Shown one piece after another: positions 52,542 through 64,000 of a stretch of 64,000 nucleotides of DNA. Source of the DNA: Chondrocystis sp. NIES-4102 (GTDB lineage: Bacteria > Cyanobacteriota > Cyanobacteriia > Cyanobacteriales > Xenococcaceae). The stretch is from contig AP018281.1 of NCBI GenBank assembly GCA_002368355.1, positions 3,410,001-3,474,000 on the forward strand, in the 5' to 3' direction. Both the position numbers and the translations under genes were made by a program. The first letter of the stretch is position 1; the number at the start of each line of letters is the position of its first letter. The notes beneath the pieces are model-generated. The model was not told the DNA's origin, made no database searches, and saw only the letters and a program-made list of their open reading frames with translations.

Positions 52542-53381
52542 TTAGGCATTAGATGATATGCGAGCGTAGAAAATACCACGAACTTTAACTTCTTCAGGTT
52601 CTTCTGCACCTAAGTCAGTAGCCGAAGGTTGCTCACTTTCAAACACACCAGCAATTTCTCCAGTGTCGCCATCAATTCTAGTGATATTAAGAGACATTTT
52701 ACCTTTGCGGGAAACAAATTCTTTAACATTAGCCTTAGAAAATCTGCTATCATCTGCACGTCCAGGTAAGGCTACAGCATTATCATAACCACTAGCAAGA
52801 CTACGCCCTTTAGGATCTAGAAAAACTTGTCCACGATAGGAAGGAACTTCAAATTCACCTTTAAAATCAGTAGAAGTATTAATTGAATCTGTACTAAATT
52901 TAGTAGAAGCAATTAATTTTTTCATAGTGAAGAGGAATGGAACTTCTTTACCACCTGGTAATAAAACAGTAGTTGGCTGAAAGTCAATGCCATCTATTTC
53001 AGTAAAAGTAAGAGTGCCATCGTCATTAGCATCGATTTTACCTTGAATCTGATCAAGACTGGAAGTATATCTAGTTAATAACTTGCCTTGAACAAATTGA
53101 GCTTTCTGACGTTTATTAACTCCTTCTTCTTTAACAAAATATTCTCTAGGCTCTAGACATAAATCTTTTATACTATAGCTCTGACCTGCTTTAACTGGAA
53201 TACTACCACGACTACTATCAGGAATTTCTAAGCAAGTGTTGGCAATTCCAGTATTGACAATATCGTCGTAAGTCAATTCATTTCTACTAACATTAGTAGA
53301 ACTACTACAGGCGGTTAGTACTCCTAAGCATAGTGCTAATAAACTAGCAATAATTGTACGGTATCTCATGGTCAACTTCAT
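52542..53381 (-). CDS. psbO: Photosystem II manganese-stabilizing protein PsbO
   Basis: The 279-residue product (possibly from Met5 at 53369, since PsbO usually starts MRYR) is the 33-kDa extrinsic subunit that stabilises the oxygen-evolving cluster. Hallmarks are LTYDDIVNTGIANTCLEI, the second cysteine in SIKDLCLEPREYFVKEE, DGIDFQPTTVLLPGG, FEVPSYRG and GEIAGVFESEQPSATDLG. The signal peptide ends LGVLTACSSS, which reads as a lipobox rather than an AxA site. The segment DANDDGTLTFTE matches the EF-hand loop spacing. The gene is monocistronic with a strong terminator. Confidence 0.97.
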   Translation of the reverse strand: MKLTMRYRTIIASLLALCLGVLTACSSSTNVSRNELTYDDIVNTGIANTCLEIPDSSRGSIPVKAGQSYSIKDLCLEPREYFVKEEGVNKRQKAQFVQGKLLTRYTSSLDQIQGKIDANDDGTLTFTEIDGIDFQPTTVLLPGGKEVPFLFTMKKLIASTKFSTDSINTSTDFKGEFEVPSYRGQVFLDPKGRSLASGYDNAVALPGRADDSRFSKANVKEFVSRKGKMSLNITRIDGDTGEIAGVFESEQPSATDLGAEEPEEVKVRGIFYARISSNA

Positions 53382-53630
53382 TTTCTCAATTTTAAATTTA
53401 ACATCGAGCGCGAAAGATGTTGAAAATAGGCTCTTCTTATGAATTAAGCCATTTTTATAGATGCTATATACTCTACCAAATAAGGACGAACAATAATTAG
53501 ATCACGCAAAAATATCATAGGTAAAAACTATCTAGTTGACTATTTTGCAGACAGGTAGGGATAAATCGGTTTAAGATCGGGGTAAATTTTGGATAAAGTA
53601 GACAAAGTTTATTTTTACTGTATTCGGCAC

Positions 53631-53951
53631 ATGACTCAAGAGCAAGATATTAATATTGATTCAACTAGGGTATTGGAAGACACAGCCAGAGATCTTTGTG
53701 CCTTGGCAGAGAAACATCGAAACGATAGCCTGTTTTTATTATCTTTATTACGGGAATTAGAAGAAATCCATCGTCAAATTAGAATAGATTTTTTTGAGGC
53801 AGCTTTACCTAAGACTCGTAATGATTTATATCTATTTGTCAGAAATATAGAAGAAAAAGGTGGTTGGCCGTATATTGAGCGAATGAGACTCAAAGATTTA
53901 TTACAATATTTGGAATTGCAGAGAGAAACTAAATCGGAAGATACTATGTAA
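53631..53951 (+). CDS. Small conserved-looking protein of unknown function
   Basis: I start at the ATG at 53631 (106 residues); an upstream in-frame TTG at 53589 would add 14. The product is helical and charged (DTARDLCALAEKHRNDSLFL, LLRELEEIHRQIRIDFFEAA). It has no signal peptide or membrane segment. I do not recognise a family. It lies 78 bp before the phosphohexomutase gene, in the same direction, and may be co-transcribed. Confidence 0.6.
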   Translation: MTQEQDINIDSTRVLEDTARDLCALAEKHRNDSLFLLSLLRELEEIHRQIRIDFFEAALPKTRNDLYLFVRNIEEKGGWPYIERMRLKDLLQYLELQRETKSEDTM

Positions 53952-54028
53952 TTTTTTGCAGGTTTCCAAAGCCAGGAGAAACAGTTAATCTAAAGTATGT
54001 TAATTGAAATTGTCTAATTCTTGGTTAT

Positions 54029-55468
54029 ATGACTTTTACTGTTAATCCCATCAAGTTTGGTACAGATGGTTGGCGCGGAGTGATCGCTGCTGACTTCACT
54101 TTTGAGCGAGTAGCTATGCTAGCTCCCTTAGCAGCTAAAGTTTTAGCAGATAATTATGGTGGGAATGGGGGTAATCAGACAGTGGTTGTAGGTTACGATC
54201 GCCGTTTTATGGCAGAGGATTTTGCCCTCGTTGCAGCCGAAGCTCTACAAGTGGCAGGATTTGACGTATTATTATCCGACGGTTATGCTCCTACTCCTGC
54301 TTTTAGTTGGGCAGCTAAAGCTTATAATGCTCTTGGGGCAATTGTGATGACAGCATCCCATAACCCTGCTGCTTATTTGGGTTTAAAGGTAAAAAGTGCG
54401 TTTGGTGGTTCTGTACCCCCAGAAATTACCGAGCAAATTGAAGCAATTATTGGTCAGACTTTGCCGATCGCTCCTCAACCTGGAAAAATTACTAAATTTG
54501 ACCCTTGGGTAAGTTATTGTCAAGGATTACAACAGAAAGTTAATATCACCGAGATTAAAGAGGCGATCGCTTCTGGTAAAGTTAAAGTTTATGTCGATGT
54601 GATGCACGGTGCAGCAGCAACAGGGTTAGAACGTCTTTTGGGTTGTCCTGTGGCAGAAATTAATAGCGATCGCGATCCTCTTTTTGGTGGTGGCGCACCC
54701 GAACCTTTACCGAAATATCTACCTGATTTTTTTCGCGCGATTAAAGAAGGTGCAAAGCAATATCCTGATAGTCTCCGCGTTGGTTTAGTATTTGATGGCG
54801 ATAGCGATCGCATTGCTGGGGCTGATGGTGAAGGTAATTTTTTAAGTTCTCAAGTCTTAATCCCAATTTTGATGGAACATTTGATCGAAAGAAAGGGTTT
54901 TGAGGGGGAAATTGTGAAAACTGTTAGTGGATCTGATTTGATACCCCGTTTGGCTGCATCCTATGGACGTTCTGTTTATGAAACTCCTATCGGATATAAG
55001 TATATTGGAGACAGAATGTTACAAGCCCAAGTGATGATCGGTGGCGAGGAATCTGGAGGTATTGGTTATGGTACACATATACCAGAACGCGATGCTTTAC
55101 TCTCGGCTTTATATATTTTAGAGGCGGTTGTGGAATCGGGAGAAGATTTAGGATCAATATATGCCCGACTACAGAAAAAAACTGATTTTACGGCAGTGTA
55201 TGATCGTATTGATTTGCCATTAGCAAGTATGGATGTGCGATCTAAGTTATTGGATCGATTGCAAACTCAAACCCCCCAAACAGTTGCAGGTATGAAGGTG
55301 ATCGACTGTCTGGATGTAGATGGGTATAAATTTAGAATGGATGAAAATACTTGGCTATTGATTCGTTTTAGTGGCACAGAGCCTGTATTACGTCTTTATT
55401 GTCAAGCTCAGAATATGACGGTAGTACGCCAGGTTTTAGAATGGGCAAGGGATTGGGCTAATTCTTAA
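54029..55468 (+). CDS. Phosphoglucomutase/phosphomannomutase family protein
   Basis: The 479-residue product has the four-domain alpha-D-phosphohexomutase plan. FGTDGWRGVIAADFT starts domain 1, AIVMTASHNPAAYLG carries the phosphoserine, VFDGDSDRIAGADGEG binds the metal, GGEESGGIGYG is the sugar-specificity loop, and IRFSGTEPVLRLY is the phosphate-binding loop. It interconverts hexose 1- and 6-phosphates, feeding nucleotide-sugar synthesis such as that needed for the glycan region. Substrate (glucose or mannose) cannot be fixed by motifs. It is shorter than the 560-residue classical Pgm. Confidence 0.92.
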   Translation: MTFTVNPIKFGTDGWRGVIAADFTFERVAMLAPLAAKVLADNYGGNGGNQTVVVGYDRRFMAEDFALVAAEALQVAGFDVLLSDGYAPTPAFSWAAKAYNALGAIVMTASHNPAAYLGLKVKSAFGGSVPPEITEQIEAIIGQTLPIAPQPGKITKFDPWVSYCQGLQQKVNITEIKEAIASGKVKVYVDVMHGAAATGLERLLGCPVAEINSDRDPLFGGGAPEPLPKYLPDFFRAIKEGAKQYPDSLRVGLVFDGDSDRIAGADGEGNFLSSQVLIPILMEHLIERKGFEGEIVKTVSGSDLIPRLAASYGRSVYETPIGYKYIGDRMLQAQVMIGGEESGGIGYGTHIPERDALLSALYILEAVVESGEDLGSIYARLQKKTDFTAVYDRIDLPLASMDVRSKLLDRLQTQTPQTVAGMKVIDCLDVDGYKFRMDENTWLLIRFSGTEPVLRLYCQAQNMTVVRQVLEWARDWANS

Positions 55469-55520
55469 TTGGTAAGCAGTTATTTAAGTAGCAAGTTTGT
55501 TTTAGGTAGTGGGGGTTTGG

Positions 55521-55620
55521 GTAGTAGGTAGTAGGTAGTAGGTAGTAGGTAGTGGGGGTAGTCAAACAAGGATAAGATCAAGCAAATAGGTAGGAGTCAG
55601 GAGTCAGGAGTCAATCATCA
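55521..55620. repeat. Two tandem heptamer arrays
   Basis: Between the phosphohexomutase and rdgB lie about five copies of GTAGGTA (about 55521-55555) and, slightly further on, about three copies of GGAGTCA (about 55592-55612). The same GAGTCAG unit, on the other strand, forms a longer array at 59690-59773. Confidence 0.8.
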
Positions 55621-55631
55621 GTAACTAATCA

Positions 55632-56210
55632 ATGAAAAAGTTAATTGTCGCAACGGGAAATCCTGGTAAATTAAAAGAGATACAGGAATATCTAATTGGT
55701 TTGCCTTGGGAATTAGAATTAAAACCTGCGGAATTGGATGTAGAAGAGACGGGGAATACTTTTATTGCTAATGCTCGTCTCAAGGCTTCGGAAGTTGCTA
55801 AAGCCGTGGGTAAATGGGCGATCGCTGATGATTCGGGCTTGGCGGTAGATGCTTTGGATGGTGCGCCTGGGTTATATTCGGCTCGTTATGGTAAAACAGA
55901 TCAAGATCGGATTGAGCGGTTATTAAGGGAATTGGGGGATAGGGATGATCGACAGGCAAAATTTATCTGTGCAGTGGCGATCGCATCTCCTGATGGTAAA
56001 ATTGCTTTAGAAACAGAGGGAATATGCCCTGGGGAAATATTATTTTCTCCTCGTGGTAGTGGGGGGTTTGGTTATGATCCGATTTTTTATGTTCCTTCCC
56101 AACAACTTACTTTTGCCGAAATGTCTGGGGAAATGAAGCGTAATATTAGCCATCGTGGGGTAGCTTTTACTCAATTAATGCCCCAATTACAAAGCCTCAG
56201 TTTGAATTGA
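55632..56210 (+). CDS. rdgB: XTP/dITP diphosphatase (non-canonical purine NTP pyrophosphatase)
   Basis: The 192-residue HAM1/RdgB family enzyme removes ITP, dITP and XTP from the nucleotide pool. Motifs are LIVATGNPGKLKEIQEYL at the N-terminus, WAIADDSGLAVDALDGAPG and SGGFGYDPIFYVP, ending NISHRGVAFTQL. Length is typical. A heptamer-repeat region directly precedes it. Confidence 0.95.
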   Translation: MKKLIVATGNPGKLKEIQEYLIGLPWELELKPAELDVEETGNTFIANARLKASEVAKAVGKWAIADDSGLAVDALDGAPGLYSARYGKTDQDRIERLLRELGDRDDRQAKFICAVAIASPDGKIALETEGICPGEILFSPRGSGGFGYDPIFYVPSQQLTFAEMSGEMKRNISHRGVAFTQLMPQLQSLSLN

Positions 56211-56783
56211 GAGAGTTTGAAGGGAATTATTGTAACAATAGATATGCTTGATAGCTGAAAAAATTATCTATAAACTTTAGTGATTAAGCAGGTAGCCCGA
56301 CATGATTATATAAGAGGGAAATCTTTGTATTCTGGTTTGGCTCTATTTTATTTTGATTTACATCGGTTTTTTAGATAAATATCATTAATAATTTTAAAAA
56401 TAAATATATACAGTAATGCTAGATAACGTTATGACGTTTTTCACTCATAATATGATAATTAATTATATTGTTCTTATCTAATTTTATTGGACTATATAAG
56501 TTAATTATTTTTTGCTTAATGAATTTAAAATAAACGATTAAAAAAGTCTATATTAAATTTTGATATGCTTTGAAGGTATTTTCAAATAAATTAGTGGAAA
56601 AATATATTTAAGTGTTTTTTATTTCCTAATTTAATTGTGGAGTGGATCTAACCGTGCAAAATTAACTTAAAACAATTAAGGTCGTATTGGCTATGAGTAG
56701 TAGTTATTAATTAAACAAAATATCCCAAAATTTTTAAGTATTGGTAGATATAAAAGCAATACTAATAAGATTTCCTATAATTA
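56211..56783. other. AT-rich intergenic region upstream of the accessory operon
   Basis: These 573 bases are strongly AT-rich and contain no gene that I can support. A short palindrome ATTGTAACAAT occurs near 56228. The promoter of the following three-gene operon should lie toward the right end. Confidence 0.5.
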
Positions 56784-57821
56784 ATGTTTTATATGGATAG
56801 AGAAAAATCTACTATAAATCAAGAATTAAAATTTTTAGCCGAAACTTTTAAATATGATGCAGTAGGAATAAATTTTCTCATTGAATTACTAAACCATTCA
56901 AACTTAGAAATAAGAGCTAAAGCTTATCATCTTTTGCAAAATATCGATTCTGAAAAAGTAAGAAATAGTATATCAGAAGGTATTCTTCTAAATCCAGGCG
57001 ATATTGTTTACAGTGTTTATCGATTGGGAATACAATTTGATGATCAAGAATATTACTTAAGCCCAAGAGAAAAAGATTGTGGTTTTTATGAAGATTATCG
57101 AGAATTAACTATAGAAGAATACGAAGATGTACAACCATATAATCCTGATATAAGATTATCAAGTCATATATCTCAAGAAGAAGCAGAAGCGATCGCCGAA
57201 TTAAGCCATCGAAGAATGATCCAAGAATGGGGGATAGCACCAGGAGGATTTGAGTGGGAAAGAAAAGATCCTGATTTTCAAGTAAAACAATGGTGTATTG
57301 CTAATAATGTTCCTTATCAAGATGAATGGGATAAATTAAGCGACTGGGAAATTAAATGGAAAATCTCAAGCTATCTTTATGAACTTAAAAATTACGAACT
57401 CGAAGATAAATTTCAAAAAGCACAGTATATATACAATTTAGATTATATTGAGCCTTGGTGTGAAAAAAACAATTTTCCCTATGATAAAAGTGGAGATAAT
57501 TGGGATAATTGGAAGACTTTAACAGACTATTTACATAAACCAGAAAACATAGCTCTACTTAGTAAATTCTGGAAAGATGGAATTGGTAGTCTTGCTTTTG
57601 TGCGTGAAGAGATTATTCAAAAGCAAATTTATCTTATACCTGAGTTAGAAGAATTGCGTAGGAAAATAGAGCTTTCCAGTTTAGAAGAAAAATTAGAATT
57701 ATTACCTGATGTAGTTAAATATGGTGATGCAGGAATAAATTTGTTGATAGGGAAAATGAACGGGTTTCAATTAAAAGTAAGCGAAAAAGCTTATCAAATA
57801 TTGCAGAATTTAGCCTGTTAA
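56784..57821 (+). CDS. HEAT-like repeat protein with internal duplications, unknown function
   Basis: The 345-residue product is unassigned. Residues 12-54 form a helical pair resembling a HEAT repeat (FLIELLNHSNLEIRAKAYHL), and residues 299-343 repeat it (AGINLLIGKMNGFQLKVSEK). Two copies of a WCxxNNxPYD-type motif lie between (170-178 and 225-233), each followed by a W-rich DxW segment. The acidic, tyrosine-rich middle has no signal or membrane part. The N-terminal 85 residues are almost identical to those of the next gene, showing recent duplication. It starts the operon that ends in the DUF692-like enzyme, so it may be a partner or substrate (inference). Confidence 0.7.
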   Translation: MFYMDREKSTINQELKFLAETFKYDAVGINFLIELLNHSNLEIRAKAYHLLQNIDSEKVRNSISEGILLNPGDIVYSVYRLGIQFDDQEYYLSPREKDCGFYEDYRELTIEEYEDVQPYNPDIRLSSHISQEEAEAIAELSHRRMIQEWGIAPGGFEWERKDPDFQVKQWCIANNVPYQDEWDKLSDWEIKWKISSYLYELKNYELEDKFQKAQYIYNLDYIEPWCEKNNFPYDKSGDNWDNWKTLTDYLHKPENIALLSKFWKDGIGSLAFVREEIIQKQIYLIPELEELRRKIELSSLEEKLELLPDVVKYGDAGINLLIGKMNGFQLKVSEKAYQILQNLAC

Positions 57822-57892
57822 TAAGTGAATCAGCAATATTCGACCATAATAATTTTTATGAACATAAAATATACATATTCAAAAAGATTTAT

Positions 57893-58633
57893 ATGGGAAT
57901 AGAAGAAGCAAATAAAAAACGGGCGATCGCGATTATAAATCAAGAATTAAAATTTTTAGCTGATACTTTTAAATATGATGCAGTAGGATTAAATTTTCTA
58001 ATTGAATTACTAAACCATTCAAACTTGCAAATTAGAGCCAAAGCTTATCATCTTTTACAAAATATCGATTCAGAAAAAGTAAGAAACAGTATATCAGAAG
58101 GTATTCTTCTTAATCCAGGCGATCGCGTTGATAGTGTTTGGGAATCAGGGATAGGATTTGATGACCAAGATTATTTTATTATTGATAGTTGTGCAAATTT
58201 AAGTAAAGAATTAGTAATTAGAAAAGATAGCGATTTTGATGATAATAATTATTATGAATTTGAAGAAGATTATATTGAAGAAAAATATGAACTAAGGGAA
58301 GATGACTATCAACATCCAGAAATAGCAAGTTATGACTCATTCTTTGCTGAATATATAGAGCAGGATGGATCAATAGAAATTAGCGATGACCAAGTAAGAA
58401 TATGGAATAAATTAAATGATTTAGACTTGGAAACATATAATTATGAGGGTGGAGATCCATTATTCGTATCTCATCATATTTGTAAAAATCAAGCAGAATT
58501 TATCGCCCAATCACTTCATCAGAAGATAATGAGAGAACATGGTATTAGTTTATTAAAACGCTTTGCCTTTGTTTGTGAACAAGTAGTCAAAAATAAAGGT
58601 TACTTAAAAATTGATGTAAACTGCAAATGTTAG
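57893..58633 (+). CDS. Paralogue of the preceding HEAT-like protein, C-terminally diverged
   Basis: The 246-residue product shares residues 15-76 with the upstream gene at very high identity (about nine in ten bases match), then diverges into an acidic, tyrosine-rich region. A shared block returns near residue 196 (FVSHHICKNQAEFIAQSLHQ). It lacks the C-terminal HEAT-like copy and instead ends in VNCKC, a Cys-x-Cys tail. The stop overlaps the ATG of the DUF692-like gene by 7 bp, implying translational coupling. No function is known. The Cys-rich end is notable because DUF692 enzymes act on cysteine-containing peptides. Confidence 0.7.
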   Translation: MGIEEANKKRAIAIINQELKFLADTFKYDAVGLNFLIELLNHSNLQIRAKAYHLLQNIDSEKVRNSISEGILLNPGDRVDSVWESGIGFDDQDYFIIDSCANLSKELVIRKDSDFDDNNYYEFEEDYIEEKYELREDDYQHPEIASYDSFFAEYIEQDGSIEISDDQVRIWNKLNDLDLETYNYEGGDPLFVSHHICKNQAEFIAQSLHQKIMREHGISLLKRFAFVCEQVVKNKGYLKIDVNCKC

Positions 58634-59328
58634 GACTAAGTATTACAGCAATTGGACTACGCCCGATAGAAGAGTGTAAAAGGATATTTCAGATACTCCA
58701 ACAACCGATGCAACTGGAATTTCTCGAATTAGCGATCGGTAGTCCTTGTCCTGTCGATTTCGAGTATCCATCTGTTCCTTTAATTTTGCACGATTCCTGT
58801 CTATATGAAAACAATATCCGTAAAAGATTAGATATTTTTCGTCCCCAAACCTGGAAACCCTACGCCAAATTTATTGCCAATAATGATGTGCGCGCAGTAT
58901 CTCTTCATGCACCATTAAAAAGAGAAGGTAGTCAACTACAATTAGAAATAGCATTATCTAAACTACAAACTACTTTACAAGTTCCTGTCTATGTAGAAGT
59001 AATGCCATCTTTTGAATATTGGTGTTCGAGCCTGGAAACCTTAGTAAATTTTCCCTTATTATTAGATGTTTCTCACGTTTTAATTTGGCATCAAGGCGAT
59101 AGCCAGCAAACACAACAAACGTGTTTATCACTAATAAATTCTCAACAAGTAGGTGCAATTCATTTAAGCCATAATCAAGGAAAAGCTGACACTCATGATC
59201 TAATTCCCGAACATATTTGGTTTCAAGATGCGATCGCTTTATGGAAGTCAAAATATTTAGTTACCTATGAAAGTTTACCAATTAAATATTCAGCATACGA
59301 AAGATTAGACAAGTGTAGATTGAGATAG
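58627..59328 (+). CDS. DUF692-like (MbnB/TglH family) multinuclear iron-dependent enzyme
   Basis: The 233-residue product starts with LGLSITAIGLRPIEECKRI, similar to the GxGLR opening of DUF692 TIM barrels. The ligands I recall for MbnB (H, H, E, D-x-x-H, H, D-x-H, E) are all present in order: H55 (LILHDS), H94 (SLHAPL), E124 (YVEVMPS), D147 and H150 (LLLDVSHV), H179 (AIHLSHN), D188 and H190 (ADTHDL) and E215 (TYESLP). Characterised members oxidise cysteine or other residues of ribosomal peptides using two or three iron ions. It is shorter than the usual 270-300 residues. No RRE-type partner gene is adjacent; instead it is coupled to two HEAT-like paralogues. The alternative is another xylose-isomerase-like barrel. 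Confidence 0.7.
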   Translation: MLGLSITAIGLRPIEECKRIFQILQQPMQLEFLELAIGSPCPVDFEYPSVPLILHDSCLYENNIRKRLDIFRPQTWKPYAKFIANNDVRAVSLHAPLKREGSQLQLEIALSKLQTTLQVPVYVEVMPSFEYWCSSLETLVNFPLLLDVSHVLIWHQGDSQQTQQTCLSLINSQQVGAIHLSHNQGKADTHDLIPEHIWFQDAIALWKSKYLVTYESLPIKYSAYERLDKCRLR

Positions 59329-59375
59329 TATAGCTTTATAAAATTAGCTTTCTTTTATTGGGGTGATTGGTTTAA

Positions 59376-59396
59376 AGGTAGTAGGTAGTAGATATT
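59376..59396. repeat. Short GTAGGTA array
   Basis: Two to three copies of the GTAGGTA unit follow the DUF692-like gene. It is the same word as the array upstream of rdgB. Confidence 0.5.
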
Positions 59397-59447
59397 TAGT
59401 CAAAAAATGTCATAACTAACATGGTTTAGTATTGCTATATTTTTTGT

Positions 59448-59633
59448 TTACTGCATAAATAACCACCCATAACCCAACCAAGCGATCGCCCATAACCCTC
59501 CATAAACATATCCCAGTCTTTTTTTATAAAGATTAGATTTGTCTTGTTGCATTGCTAAATGAACTATCAAAGCAAGGGGAGTTAACCAAAATAGTAAGGA
59601 TAATATAATTAACGTATCGTTTTCTATACTCAT
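59448..59633 (-). CDS. Small two-helix membrane protein
   Basis: The 61-residue product has two hydrophobic segments (LIILSLLFWLTPLALIVHLA and YVYGGLWAIAWLGYGWLFM) joined by a short basic loop (KSNLYKKRLG). The positive charges suggest a hairpin with the loop in the cytoplasm. I recognise no family. Its coding frame is clean, and it lies downstream of the DUF456 gene on the same strand, beyond a heptamer array. Confidence 0.55.
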   Translation of the reverse strand: MSIENDTLIILSLLFWLTPLALIVHLAMQQDKSNLYKKRLGYVYGGLWAIAWLGYGWLFMQ

Positions 59634-59689
59634 ACCATTCTTTAAAAGTAACTAGAGAAATTAAAAATTTGTAATTAATAACTGCCTCC

Positions 59690-59774
<85 letters not shown>

Positions 59775-59779
59775 CATAT

Positions 59780-60319
59780 CTAATTAACAAAAACCAAAGA
59801 CCAAGTGGAATAAATAAAGATCGCCACCGCTAAAGTAGCTAATAAAGCTTCAATCACATTACCAATAATTGAGGCAACAACAATACCTGTACTTGCTTTT
59901 AAAGCCTGTTGTAGACGTGCAGTAGAATCCAAATTACTACGATAGAGATATTCGCCGACAAACGCACCTAACACCGCACCAATTAATACCCCAAATAAGG
60001 GCCCTCCCAAAGGTAAAGCGGGTAACAAACCCAAAAAACCAATAACCATACCAGCGATCGCTCCATACTGACTCCACTTACTAGCACCAGCCTGTTTAAC
60101 TCCAAAGTACACTGCTAAATATTCCACCACTGCACTAAGAATTAAAACCGCAAAAATCAAAATCATTGATAAACCAATACCAGTAAAATTAGTAGCCACA
60201 CTCCAAATAAGAATTGCCAATAAAATAAAACTAGTACCAGGTAAACCAGGAATAATTGACCCAATTACCCCTACTCCCATTAACCCCAAAACCAACCAAT
60301 AAATAGTAGTGATATCCAT
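59780..60319 (-). CDS. DUF456 family membrane protein
   Basis: This 179-residue polytopic protein has glycine-rich helices typical of DUF456 (GVIGSIIPGLPGTSFILLAI, then GLLPALPLGGPLFGVLIGAV and FVGEYLYRS). Function is unknown. It begins 2 bp after the M48 protease stop, so the two are co-transcribed. Confidence 0.85.
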   Translation of the reverse strand: MDITTIYWLVLGLMGVGVIGSIIPGLPGTSFILLAILIWSVATNFTGIGLSMILIFAVLILSAVVEYLAVYFGVKQAGASKWSQYGAIAGMVIGFLGLLPALPLGGPLFGVLIGAVLGAFVGEYLYRSNLDSTARLQQALKASTGIVVASIIGNVIEALLATLAVAIFIYSTWSLVFVN

Positions 60320-60321
60320 AT

Positions 60322-61173
60322 CTAAAAATAATTACCTAATATTTGTGCAAAACGCTCTTTTCCTTCTTCCAATTCCCCAGGAATACCATTCGGATATTCT
60401 TGCTCAATAATATTAATTAATTGCCCAATGCGATTTTCAGGATTAGGATGGGTACTCATAAACTCAGGTTGTCCCCCAGCACTACCCCGTGCAGAATTAA
60501 GAATTTTCATTAACTCTACAATACCTATAGGGCTATATCCTGCTTCGGTCATAAATTGCAAACCCAGGCGATCGCTTTCTAACTCGTCTTCTCTTCCATA
60601 CTTGAGATTAACCATCTGATTAACTGCTTGAGCTAAAATGGCTGCTTGTCTACTACCTTCAGGACTATCACTAGCAGCAATACCCACTGCATTAACCAAA
60701 GCACTACCTAATTGTTGCTTGGCTAAATGTTCAGCACCGTGTCTACCTATTACATGACCCGCTTCATGACCCAAAACCCCTGCTAATTGAGCTTCTGAAT
60801 TCAGCCGTCTTAATAGTCCTGCGGTGATAAATACCTGTCCTCCAGGGAGAGCAAAAGCATTAACTGTTTGTGGATCGCGCAATAAATGAAACTCAAAAGG
60901 ATAAGCAGATTCTTTAGCTAAGGAATTTTGAATAACTCTATTACCTACTTGATCTATATAACTTTGTAAACGCTGATCGGGATAAAGATTACCGTGTTTG
61001 GCTGCCATTTGAGGAGCAGATTGACGACCAATAATTACTTCTTGTTGAGGACTAAGCTGTACTCTTTGTCTTTCTCCTGTAATCGGATTGTCACTTACGT
61101 TAGTGAAATAATTAAATAACCCAAAAATCCCAAAGATTGCACCAATAGCTAGACGTATTAATAAACGACTCAC
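60322..61173 (-). CDS. M48-family metalloprotease
   Basis: I start at the GTG at 61171-61173 because a GGAGG ribosome-binding site (61185-61189) sits at normal spacing. The in-frame TTG at 61191 would overlap that site. The 283-residue product has an N-terminal hydrophobic anchor (LLIRLAIGAIFGIFGLFNYF) and then the zinc motif LGHEAGHVIGRHGAEHLA (HExxH) with the third ligand in DELESDRLGLQFM. It resembles BepA/LoiP-type envelope proteases that control protein quality. It is co-transcribed with DUF456. Confidence 0.9.
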   Translation of the reverse strand: MSRLLIRLAIGAIFGIFGLFNYFTNVSDNPITGERQRVQLSPQQEVIIGRQSAPQMAAKHGNLYPDQRLQSYIDQVGNRVIQNSLAKESAYPFEFHLLRDPQTVNAFALPGGQVFITAGLLRRLNSEAQLAGVLGHEAGHVIGRHGAEHLAKQQLGSALVNAVGIAASDSPEGSRQAAILAQAVNQMVNLKYGREDELESDRLGLQFMTEAGYSPIGIVELMKILNSARGSAGGQPEFMSTHPNPENRIGQLINIIEQEYPNGIPGELEEGKERFAQILGNYF

Positions 61174-61257
61174 TCTTTTTGCTTCCTCCAATTAAATTAT
61201 TGGCAGAATGTTATCACGGATCTATTTATTTCTTTATATTTCTTTGCTCTTGTTTAA

Positions 61258-61668
61258 TTATGCTTTGAGGATTATCTGACAGTAACCGATTAATTTAGTA
61301 GTGCGATCGCTGATGTTTTTGCGTCTTTCGGTTTCCGTAGCTTTTTGGCGCGTAGTTGCTAAAAATAAGATATCTGTGGTTAATAATTTGAATTCTCGCT
61401 TAATTTCGGTTTGTACCGATAGCCAGCGTGAAAATATTTCTGATTCTACAAATTCTGACCCAATAATTTCAGCTTCAAGACCAGCAATATTGTCATTAAA
61501 CCATCTCTGAATCTTCTCAAACTCCTTTTTAACCTCAGCTTGCTGCCCATAACTTGCCAAATCGCCCAAAAAATTATTAAACTCTGTTAACAAAGTCATG
61601 AAATCCTGATATGCTCGATGATGTGATGTGGATAACATTATTGGGTTTGAGGTAAGGTAATTAATCAT
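61258..61668 (-). CDS. PatD-like protein
   Basis: The 136-residue product (an in-frame ATG at 61638 gives 126) is all-helical, with VQTEIKREFKLLTTDILFLA and a closing KNISDRTTKLIGYCQIIL. This pattern resembles PatD, a small protein that adjusts heterocyst frequency in Anabaena and is also found in cyanobacteria without heterocysts. The assignment is from memory of the C-terminal half and should be treated as tentative. It is monocistronic, divergent from rel. Confidence 0.55.
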   Translation of the reverse strand: MINYLTSNPIMLSTSHHRAYQDFMTLLTEFNNFLGDLASYGQQAEVKKEFEKIQRWFNDNIAGLEAEIIGSEFVESEIFSRWLSVQTEIKREFKLLTTDILFLATTRQKATETERRKNISDRTTKLIGYCQIILKA

Positions 61669-61954
61669 AAGATAAAATTGTGTACTTGGTAAAGCTAGCT
61701 TTTTTACTAATTAATATCCGAAAAAATAACCAGCAAAAGTATACTTTTATTCTTAAAAAATACGTTAATTTTATATATTAATGCTTAACTGTATAGCACA
61801 ATTAGATAAAACCCTAATTGTCTAGAATACCTGCTTAATACTCAAAATATTTATTCTCAATCAAAGGTTCTTAATTTCAGTCGGGTAATTATCAGGTTTG
61901 CTGAAGTTTAATTAATTTTTCCACACTAACTTATATTTTTATATTTTTTGATCT

Positions 61955-64000
61955 ATGACCGCTATCTCTATCATAGAAAATCGCCCTAAAAAAGTTAAAC
62001 TCCCCCGATGGTTACGCGAATGTCTAATTAATCAACATCCAGAACAGCCAGAGTCAGACTCCGCCTTAATATGTCGGGCATTTAATTTTGCTTATCAGTT
62101 ACACGAAGGACAGTATCGTAAATCGGGAGAACCTTATATTGCTCATCCCATTGCGGTCGCTAGTTTACTTAGGGATTTAGGTGGGGATAGTGTTACTATA
62201 GCTGCTGGCTTTCTGCACGATGTGGTAGAAGATACCGATGTTACCCCAGAAGAAATTGAAGCAATGTTTGGGGAACAAGTGCGCCAGTTAGTTGAGGGAG
62301 TCACTAAGCTATCTAAATTTAACTTTTCTAGCACTACCGAACGTCAGGCGGAAAATTTTCGCCGAATGTTTTTGGCAATGGCAACAGATATTCGTGTAAT
62401 AGTGGTGAAGTTGGCAGACAGACTGCACAATATGCGAACCCTAGAGCATCTCAAGCCAGAAAAGCAAAAGCGCATCAGCCAAGAAACTAGAGAAATATTT
62501 GCACCCCTTGCCAATAGATTAGGAATTGGGCGGTTTAAATGGGAACTAGAGGATTTATGTTTTAAATATCTAGAACCAGAAGCCTACGAAGAAATTAAAG
62601 CTTTAATTGCTGAAAGACGCGCCGATCGCGAAGCCAGAATTGCTCAAGTAGCTAAAACCTTAAAAAATCGCTTAAAACAACTTAAAGTCAACGTAATTGA
62701 GTTAAAAGGCAGACCTAAGCATCTTTACGGCATATATCAGAAAATGCAGCGACAGCAGAAGGATTTTAGCCAAATTTATGATATTGCAGCCTTTAGAATT
62801 ATTGTGGAAACTAATGAGCAATGTTATCGCTCCTTAGCAGTAGTTCACGATGCTTTTAAACCAATTCCAGGACGCTTTAAAGACTACATTGGTCTACCTA
62901 AGCCCAATCGTTATCAATCCCTCCATACTACTGTTGTGGGTTCTAATGGTCGTCCCATTGAAATCCAGATTCGCACAATGGAAATGCACCAGATCGCAGA
63001 ATATGGAATTGCTGCCCATTGGAAATATAAGGAAACAGGCACGAGTAATATAGAACTATCCTCCGAAGATAATAAGTTTACTTGGCTACGCCAGCTATTG
63101 GAATGGCAAAAAGAGCTTAGTGACGCTCAAGAATACATGGACAGCGTTAAGGATAATTTATTTGAAGATGATGTCTATGTTTTTACTCCCGATGGTGATG
63201 TAGTCGCTTTGGCACAGGGAGCAACCCCTGTAGACTTTGCCTATCGCATTCATAGTGAAATTGGTAATCACATGAAAGGCGCGAGGGTTAATGGTCGTTG
63301 GTCTGTTTTGTCTAAACCCTTGGAAAATGGCGATATTGTAGAAATTGTTACTCAAAAAAATAGTCACCCTAGTTTAGATTGGCTAAATTTTGTTGTCTCC
63401 CCCACAGCCCGTAATCGTATCCGTCAGTGGTATAAGCGATCGCATCGGGATGAAAATATTATGCGGGGTAAAGAATTGTTAGAGAAGGAAATGGGTAAAA
63501 GTGGGTTTGATTCCCTATTAAAATCCGAACCTATGCTTTTAACCGCCCAACGTTGTAATTATCATTCCGTAGAAGATTTATTAGCAGCTTTGGGATATGG
63601 AGAAATTACCCAAAATCAGGTAGTTAATCGTCTGCGAGATGTAGTTAAAGAACAACAACCAGTAGAAATAATTACTATCTCAGAGGAAGTAGAAATACCC
63701 AAACAGATAGTAACTGAGACTGAGAAAAAGGAAAGTGGATCGCCTATTCTAGGGGTAGAAGGAATGCTTTATCATATTGCAGGTTGTTGTAAACCTCTAC
63801 CTGGTGAATCAATTATTGGTGCAGTTACTTTAAGTTCTCGCGGTATTTCGATCCATGCTCAAGGTTGCCATAATATCGATAAAATTCCAGGGGAACGTAT
63901 TATCCCTGTAAGCTGGAACGAACGCAATGAAACAGGTAAACCTTTAACCTACCCTGTAGACATTCAAATCGAAGCGATGGATAGAGTTGGGGTGTTGAAA
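61955..64000 (+). CDS. rel: Bifunctional (p)ppGpp synthetase/hydrolase, 3' end cut by window
   Basis: The frame opens with ATG at 61955 and stays open to the right edge, giving 682 residues. The HD hydrolase domain has YIAHPIAVASLL and AAGFLHDVVEDTDV (HD plus ED, about residues 80-95), so the hydrolase should be active. The synthetase domain shows LKGRPKHLYGIYQKMQRQ, YDIAAFRIIV, NRYQSLHTTVVG and IEIQIRTMEMHQIAEYG. A TGS domain (DDVYVFTPDGDVVALAQGAT) and a zinc-finger-like region with AGCCKPLPGESI follow. The terminal ACT domain lies beyond the window. It makes and degrades the stringent-response alarmone. Confidence 0.95.
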   Translation, partial: MTAISIIENRPKKVKLPRWLRECLINQHPEQPESDSALICRAFNFAYQLHEGQYRKSGEPYIAHPIAVASLLRDLGGDSVTIAAGFLHDVVEDTDVTPEEIEAMFGEQVRQLVEGVTKLSKFNFSSTTERQAENFRRMFLAMATDIRVIVVKLADRLHNMRTLEHLKPEKQKRISQETREIFAPLANRLGIGRFKWELEDLCFKYLEPEAYEEIKALIAERRADREARIAQVAKTLKNRLKQLKVNVIELKGRPKHLYGIYQKMQRQQKDFSQIYDIAAFRIIVETNEQCYRSLAVVHDAFKPIPGRFKDYIGLPKPNRYQSLHTTVVGSNGRPIEIQIRTMEMHQIAEYGIAAHWKYKETGTSNIELSSEDNKFTWLRQLLEWQKELSDAQEYMDSVKDNLFEDDVYVFTPDGDVVALAQGATPVDFAYRIHSEIGNHMKGARVNGRWSVLSKPLENGDIVEIVTQKNSHPSLDWLNFVVSPTARNRIRQWYKRSHRDENIMRGKELLEKEMGKSGFDSLLKSEPMLLTAQRCNYHSVEDLLAALGYGEITQNQVVNRLRDVVKEQQPVEIITISEEVEIPKQIVTETEKKESGSPILGVEGMLYHIAGCCKPLPGESIIGAVTLSSRGISIHAQGCHNIDKIPGERIIPVSWNERNETGKPLTYPVDIQIEAMDRVGVLK

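Follow-up and report, generated by a model that had tools for sequence, protein, structure and literature searches.

We examined a 64,000-nucleotide stretch of the Chondrocystis sp. NIES-4102 genome (contig AP018281.1, positions 3,410,001 to 3,474,000, forward strand; hereafter the window), in which three adjacent genes encode two related proteins, h1 and h2, and a TIM-barrel enzyme. The barrel has a conserved nine-residue site, it is inherited together with the core domain of its upstream partner and tightly coupled to it, and the partners of its relatives are multiplied and change faster than the enzyme. We tentatively read the barrel as a metalloenzyme that acts on or through this coupled acidic partner, with protein modification as its probable role. 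Because enzyme and partner tend to be co-inherited, they may together constitute a hitherto undescribed type of chemical protein modification.

The trio was first singled out in a prediction made from the sequence, which described a DUF692-like enzyme with two HEAT-like partners. The underlying observation holds for the most part, but its family label fails as stated, and the arguments drawn from the HEAT repeats and from a C-terminal Cys-Lys-Cys (CKC) fall on comparison with relatives. What remains is a co-conserved enzyme–partner unit in an informative genomic setting. All three predicted genes exist, on the same strand and flanked by two further genes, and the overlap reported for the third gene is confirmed. 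Genomes and loci carry G and L numbers below, G000 being the window's own genome. The features of the locus are as follows.

56784–57821, + strand: h1, 345 aa, with an N-terminal HEAT-like part, the complete partner core and a second, C-terminal HEAT-like part (open reading frame)
56973–57641, + strand: partner core domain within h1, containing both WC motifs (alignments A3 and A6)
57893–58633, + strand: h2, 246 aa, a paralog of h1 with a shortened core and CKC at its end (open reading frame, core profile)
58627–58633, + strand: 7-bp overlap between the end of h2 and the start of the enzyme gene (sequence)
58627–59328, + strand: enzyme, a 233-aa TIM-barrel protein with nine conserved putative metal ligands (open reading frame, alignment A2, AlphaFold model, Foldseek)

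Enzyme and partner core are inherited together

Searches at E ≤ 0.001 found the enzyme in 7 of 60 relatives, the own genome counted, and in 15 of 388 genomes of the order, where eight copies are intact (one of them split by a contig end), three are broken or partial (G015, G016 and G022) and four are weak PF01261 hits. Across the phylum, the matches were confined to 2 of 386 genomes, the own genome and one weak hit. A named collection contributed 19 enzyme loci, mostly cyanobacterial, plus two Acidimicrobiales metagenome-assembled genomes (MAGs) and one Rhizobium MAG. A wider spread around an Acidimicrobiales MAG was considered and rejected, as the single match among 296 genomes of its class is the MAG itself.

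A profile of the partner core (A6, 19 rows) matches 8 of 388 genomes of the order (G000, G002, G009, G019, G170, G180, G221 and G352), the order sets used for enzyme and core being taken as the same draw. The first seven also have an intact enzyme; G352 has core genes, one with an internal stop, and no enzyme. Among the eight genomes with an intact enzyme, the only one that lacks the core is G306, whose enzyme is 43% identical, and none of the three genomes with broken or partial enzymes has it. Fisher's exact test gives 2.6e-13 for this co-occurrence, a value that ignores shared ancestry. A search with h1 alone found it in 3 of 30 relatives, which are the three that have genes for HEAT repeats plus core (HEAT-core genes) next to the enzyme.

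The gene order tells the same story. In the 14 usable named loci, a HEAT-core partner stands directly upstream of the enzyme in 11 and a different partner in two (L056 and L058), and a contig end interrupts L051. The end of the partner gene overlaps the start of the enzyme gene in 7 of 14 loci measured, and the distance is at most 46 bp in 13 of these 14 (L051 is not measurable). These sequence comparisons argue strongly for co-conservation of enzyme and partner core, and the original prediction is borne out elsewhere in the sense that the two are kept as a unit. The partners change faster: between Stenomitos and Lyngbya, identity is 89% for the enzyme, 83–90% for STM4011, STM4012 and STM4014, which belong to a cassette described below, and 48–78% for four partner pairs, the lowest of which (48%) may be non-orthologous.

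The enzyme is a barrel outside the curated families

DUF692 is the former name of PF05114, the family of the multinuclear non-heme iron (MNIO) enzymes MbnB, TglH and ChrH. The PF05114 profile matched neither the window enzyme nor six homologs (0 of 7 at E ≤ 10), and the own genome gave no PF05114 match at E ≤ 0.001, although the same search returned matches in 7 of 59 genomes of the phylum. A Pfam scan of the enzyme gave only PF01261, at E 0.17 and 12 bits versus a cutoff of 31.1; one of the six homologs reached E 2.4e-4 and 21.3 bits for the same family, also under the cutoff. An NCBIfam scan of the enzyme returned nothing plausible, and a profile search of PDB sequences gave no match at E ≤ 10.

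More distant relationships emerged from hhalign and Foldseek. The enzyme family aligns with three PF01261 proteins (L016–L018) at probability 98.8 and E 4e-17 over 204 columns, and with the PF05114 alignment at probability 88.4 and E 2.8e-6 over 152 columns with the N-terminal His ligands unpaired, a preference that is biased because the PF01261 group was found using this enzyme. The two reference groups barely match each other (E 0.013). They comprise three of four weak PF01261 hits (A5; L019 was left out as short) and 7 of 15 PF05114 matches (A4; minus-strand, short or weak rows were left out). Against single proteins, the picture was more balanced: the family gave E 9e-4 for one PF05114 protein, 0.058 for endonuclease IV (Nfo; 25 columns) and 0.4 for hydroxypyruvate isomerase. 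With the AlphaFold (AF2) model of the enzyme (pLDDT 95.5), the top Foldseek match is MbnB, narrowly first at E 8e-6 and TM 0.56, followed by endonuclease IV (9.6e-5), allulose epimerase (2.2e-4), a Haemophilus somnus DUF692 protein (6.3e-4) and TglH (7.1e-4). Query TM-scores over the best matches are 0.51–0.56.

The prediction had also credited the enzyme with the nine metal ligands of MbnB and TglH. Nine putative ligands are indeed present (H55, H94, E124, D147, H150, H179, D188, H190 and E215) and invariant in 15 of 15 aligned homologs, as are C41, C58 and H182. This alignment (A2) comprises the window enzyme and 14 of the 19 named loci; broken or partial copies (L053, L057 and L059) and fragments (L060 and L061) were excluded, and a contig end removes the first residues of L051. 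The fifth ligand does not fit the claim, being His in 15 of 15 homologs, whereas the cyanobacterial PF05114 proteins compared have Asn (7 of 7). The PF01261 proteins L016–L018 have all nine residues, with His at the fifth position in 3 of 3. E. coli Nfo has the same residue types in the same order, including His at position five when its letters are checked, under a ligand numbering and assignment that we take to be correct. In PMC10880893, Asn187 of TglH occupies the fifth ligand place, and the TglH ligands are described as highly conserved among MbnB homologs. Because TglH and the PF05114 proteins have Asn at this place and the window family has His, the nine-residue set is, at the level of sequence, not specific to MbnB/TglH.

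With no profile match and His instead of Asn at ligand 5, membership in DUF692 (PF05114/MNIO) was rejected. From sequence and predicted fold, we describe the enzyme as a putative xylose-isomerase-like/MbnB-like barrel whose site is of the endonuclease IV type and which falls within none of the curated families. Two alternatives bear directly on this assignment. The enzyme might be a true MNIO that has drifted out of PF05114, with the core protein replacing the RRE/DUF2063 partner and recruiting an unlinked substrate. MbnB as the best fold, the surviving alignment with PF05114, a single PF05114 protein that scores better than Nfo and agreement at eight of nine ligands are consistent with such drift, but the seven failed profile comparisons, the His at ligand 5 and the closer relationship to PF01261 proteins make it unlikely. 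Alternatively, the barrel could be a small-molecule isomerase, epimerase or hydrolase, with the HEAT-core protein serving to scaffold or regulate it, as the homolog that approaches the PF01261 cutoff, the profile match to the PF01261 proteins and the allulose epimerases among the best folds might suggest. Allulose-type epimerases use about four of such residues, however, whereas this family retains all nine, and its partners are multiplied and fast-changing; we regard this alternative, too, as improbable.

The partner is defined by a core domain

As proposed, h1 and h2 are paralogs, with 85% identity over 82 aligned residues. Over these 82 shared codons, nonsynonymous divergence (dN) is 0.09 and synonymous divergence (dS) is 0.40, and the copies therefore look selected there, not decaying. 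The core profile aligns with h1 over positions 2–185 of 187 (E 5.4e-57, the h1 row itself being in the profile) and with h2 only over positions 2–78 (E 1.6e-11). The WC motifs noted earlier in h1 read WCIANNVPYQD and WCEKNNFPYDK; h2 lacks the WC motif and has the CKC end, also as noted. The AlphaFold model of h1 (pLDDT 83.4) is helical at both ends, and the whole model has no PDB fold match at E ≤ 0.001. Pfam and NCBIfam scans of h1 and h2 did not find DUF2063, Anthrone_oxy or an MbnC-type family.

The HEAT-like character ascribed to both proteins is present but weak, with HEAT_2 and GUN4_N under the Pfam cutoffs, and it is not universal in the family. What is conserved is a core of ∼190 residues, C-terminal to the HEAT repeats (alignment A3 of 26 HEAT-core copies, 19 of which form profile A6). 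The partners in L052, L054 and L055 have no HEAT part, and a profile built without these three loci recovers each of them as the best frame of its locus (E 2.5e-23, 2.6e-9 and a weak 0.032). The HEAT repeats were accordingly rejected as an essential part of the partner. The CKC end, for which a special role had been suggested, occurs in only 1 of 26 copies and was rejected as a conserved site. The WC cysteine occurs in 19 of 26 and is missing from both L049 copies, which weakens it as an obligatory target.

All 26 partner copies are acidic (isoelectric point (pI) 4.1–5.3), and the 15 enzymes have values of 5.2–6.8. Relatives have from one to six tandem partner copies, and one enzyme may have up to six tandem partners on one contig. 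A fixed split into substrate and recruiter between two HEAT proteins, as first envisaged, is not supported by these copy numbers and the three partners without HEAT repeats. That a single enzyme can have many partners is easier to reconcile with targets or adaptors than with an obligate subunit in one-to-one pairing.

Related barrels have other acidic partners

In a Rhizobium MAG (L058, 5460–8762) and in Cyanothece (L056, 1565–3785), the barrel is preceded by DUF6878-type proteins (E 1.3e-9 and 4.5e-6, respectively). In L056, the DUF6878 match comes from another upstream protein than the one whose gene overlaps the enzyme; the latter protein can be aligned to the L058 protein over that protein's C-terminal half, at 39% identity, and has zero cysteines. 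An ATPase-like gene (HATPase_c, under the cutoff) lies further upstream in the Rhizobium MAG. The PF01261 relatives likewise have a close upstream gene.

L016, 1357–2927: cyanobacterial PF01261 barrel and acidic-protein gene, 14 bp apart
L017, 156–1809: the same pair, 145 bp apart
L018, 1384–3017: the same pair, with a 1-bp overlap

The upstream proteins of L016–L018 have 231–234 residues, a pI of 4.6–4.8 and no credible Pfam family, and homology to the HEAT-core partner was not detected. In all, three kinds of acidic protein are encoded upstream of such barrels (HEAT-core, DUF6878-type and L016–L018 type). Y[DN]D motifs are found in all three, possibly by chance.

Acidic partners of three kinds (pI 4.1–5.3) could also restrain a phosphodiesterase or nuclease in a toxin–antitoxin-like manner, a reading that could draw further on the nine residues shared with E. 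coli Nfo, the patchy distribution and the broken copies in three order genomes. It is nevertheless very improbable: PADLOC gave no match among six proteins scanned, there is no profile similarity to Nfo, no enzyme relative was found among plasmids, phages or viral contigs, and the enzyme is linked with the STM401x cassette.

Enzyme and partners are associated with the STM4011–STM4015 cassette

In Stenomitos (L077) and Lyngbya (L076), the gene order is STM4014, STM4013, an unnamed 241-aa gene, STM4012, STM4011, five or four HEAT-core genes, respectively, and the enzyme. In LEGE 13415 (L074), STM4012 and STM4011 are followed by a reverse-strand open reading frame, two HEAT-core genes and the enzyme. 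Dulcicalothrix (L072) has STM4011 on the opposite strand from the HEAT-core genes, ∼14 kb away. In Pantanalinema the genes are spread over two contigs: the cassette and six HEAT-core genes reach the end of one (L073), and the enzyme and a single HEAT-core gene occupy the end of the other (L047). Because the contigs are separate, linkage is only inferred there. Enzyme and partners therefore lie in or near the cassette in four relatives, with Pantanalinema as a fifth by inference. The cassette neighbors include two radical SAM proteins and one ATP-grasp protein. Family matches come from L046, L073 and others, and the remaining cassette genes are named by likeness. Of 23 genomes with an enzyme gene, intact or broken, 7 have STM4011 above its cutoff, versus 9 of 148 in the order (Fisher 0.0017); the two sets share some genomes.

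Calothrix parasitica and Hyella have STM4011, with no linkage to the enzyme seen, and the enzyme fragment in L061 (Phormidium) is part of a fusion with a frame that resembles STM4012. A broken STM4011 remnant with stops stands in the own genome at G000:C1:975906-976238 (inside L075), far from the trio. In G170, a DUF6745 protein (E 9e-26; L025, 4018–5295) is encoded upstream of the HEAT-core genes.

Many partners carry an N-terminal VLGG motif followed by HEAT repeats, as do STM4015-type proteins and WD40 proteins; the motif is absent from h1 and h2. This N-terminus occurs in 68 of 195 genomes of the order, one of which has at least 25 copies, and because it is widespread and precedes other domains, we consider it a general module. 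As a feature specific for the enzyme–partner system it was rejected, given that spread and the several kinds of domain behind it. Fusions to WD40, pentapeptide-repeat, STM4015/leucine-rich-repeat and other domains (some by likeness) and long tandem arrays are seen in L156, L157, L159, L070, L072, L073, L076 and L077, among others.

The open-licence PMC literature yielded no paper naming STM4011 or STM4012 and no mention of DUF6878 or DUF6745; for STM4013, STM4014, STM4015 and SEN3800 it gave two papers, each with a single mention, of the listing type, of STM4013 or STM4015. The same literature gave nothing for 'multinuclear non-heme iron' together with 'HEAT repeat' or for 'xylose isomerase-like TIM barrel', 'HEAT repeat' and 'cyanobacteria' combined. 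In the accessible part of an MNIO landscape paper (PMC12452194), genome mining relies on PF05114, and the main text, to the same extent, is without 'HEAT', 'xylose isomerase' and 'cyanobacter'. PF05114-based mining misses a barrel that has a nine-residue site of the His type and a coupled partner of its own. The enzyme–partner unit is an entry point both to the STM4011–STM4015 cassette, scarcely mentioned in the literature searched, and to the VLGG-HEAT-tagged proteins, which form a large family in cyanobacteria.

A proposed role for the enzyme–partner unit

In our favored reading, a metalloenzyme working on or through its partner, the barrel would bind two or three metal ions and would dock on the core of the coupled partner, which could be either the modified protein or an adaptor that presents the target. 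Extra partner paralogs would widen the set of targets. In the own genome, only one enzyme and two partners without the tag would be left of the unit, and the most likely partner for the enzyme to act on or through would be h1, which has the complete core, with h2 as a shortened copy.

Several points weigh against this reading. The core domain has no known fold or function in the family and structure comparisons. Three of the eight core genomes (G000, G009 and G019) supplied rows to the profile that found them, and the Fisher value takes no account of shared ancestry. The enzyme and core of G180 sit on separate contigs, and among the open reading frames at 53000–63000 of the window, none is an STM4011 or STM4012 gene by likeness. 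The absence of the WC cysteine at L049 and the Cys-free Cyanothece partner indicate that partner cysteines are not universal and that cysteine chemistry of the MNIO kind is not a general feature of the partner. The reaction, the metal and the complex are proposals drawn from sequence comparison and a predicted structure.

A broader version would make the unit one example of a partner-coupled class of protein-modifying TIM barrels outside PF05114, with at least three unrelated kinds of acidic partner that are themselves modified, and the HEAT-core unit, in cyanobacteria, as one of several STM4011–STM4015 maturation modules sharing a VLGG-HEAT docking domain. We consider this extension doubtful.

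Surroundings of the trio

The flanking genes are presumably rdgB-like and DUF456-like. A promoter and terminator scan was uninformative, with 24 promoter-like sites versus 21.1 expected and no terminator found, and none of the small open reading frames around the trio looked precursor-like on inspection. Just downstream, at 59661–59790 of the window on the − strand, a short in-frame tandem repeat contains RSQESGV several times.

Comparison with known systems

The MNIO enzymes of PF05114 resemble the window enzyme in their TIM barrel, in eight of the nine ligand residues and in the pairing of their genes with a partner protein, and MbnB provides its best solved fold. The window enzyme differs in having no PF05114 match and His, not Asn, at ligand 5, and neither h1 nor h2 contains a PF05114-type partner family. 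Among xylose-isomerase-like PF01261 (AP_endonuc_2) proteins, L016–L018 are the best profile match, have all nine residues including His 5 and have a close upstream acidic partner; in contrast, the window enzyme itself stays under the PF01261 cutoff, and their partner has no detected homology to the core. Endonuclease IV has the same nine residues and is among the best folds of the window enzyme, but the two have no sequence-profile match (E 0.058), and endonuclease IV is not known to have a partner subunit. The window trio has no nearby gene of the STM4011–STM4015 cassette, of which the own genome has only the broken STM4011 remnant, whereas in Stenomitos and Lyngbya the enzyme and its partners come after STM4011, and STM4015 proteins share the VLGG-HEAT N-terminus with many partners.

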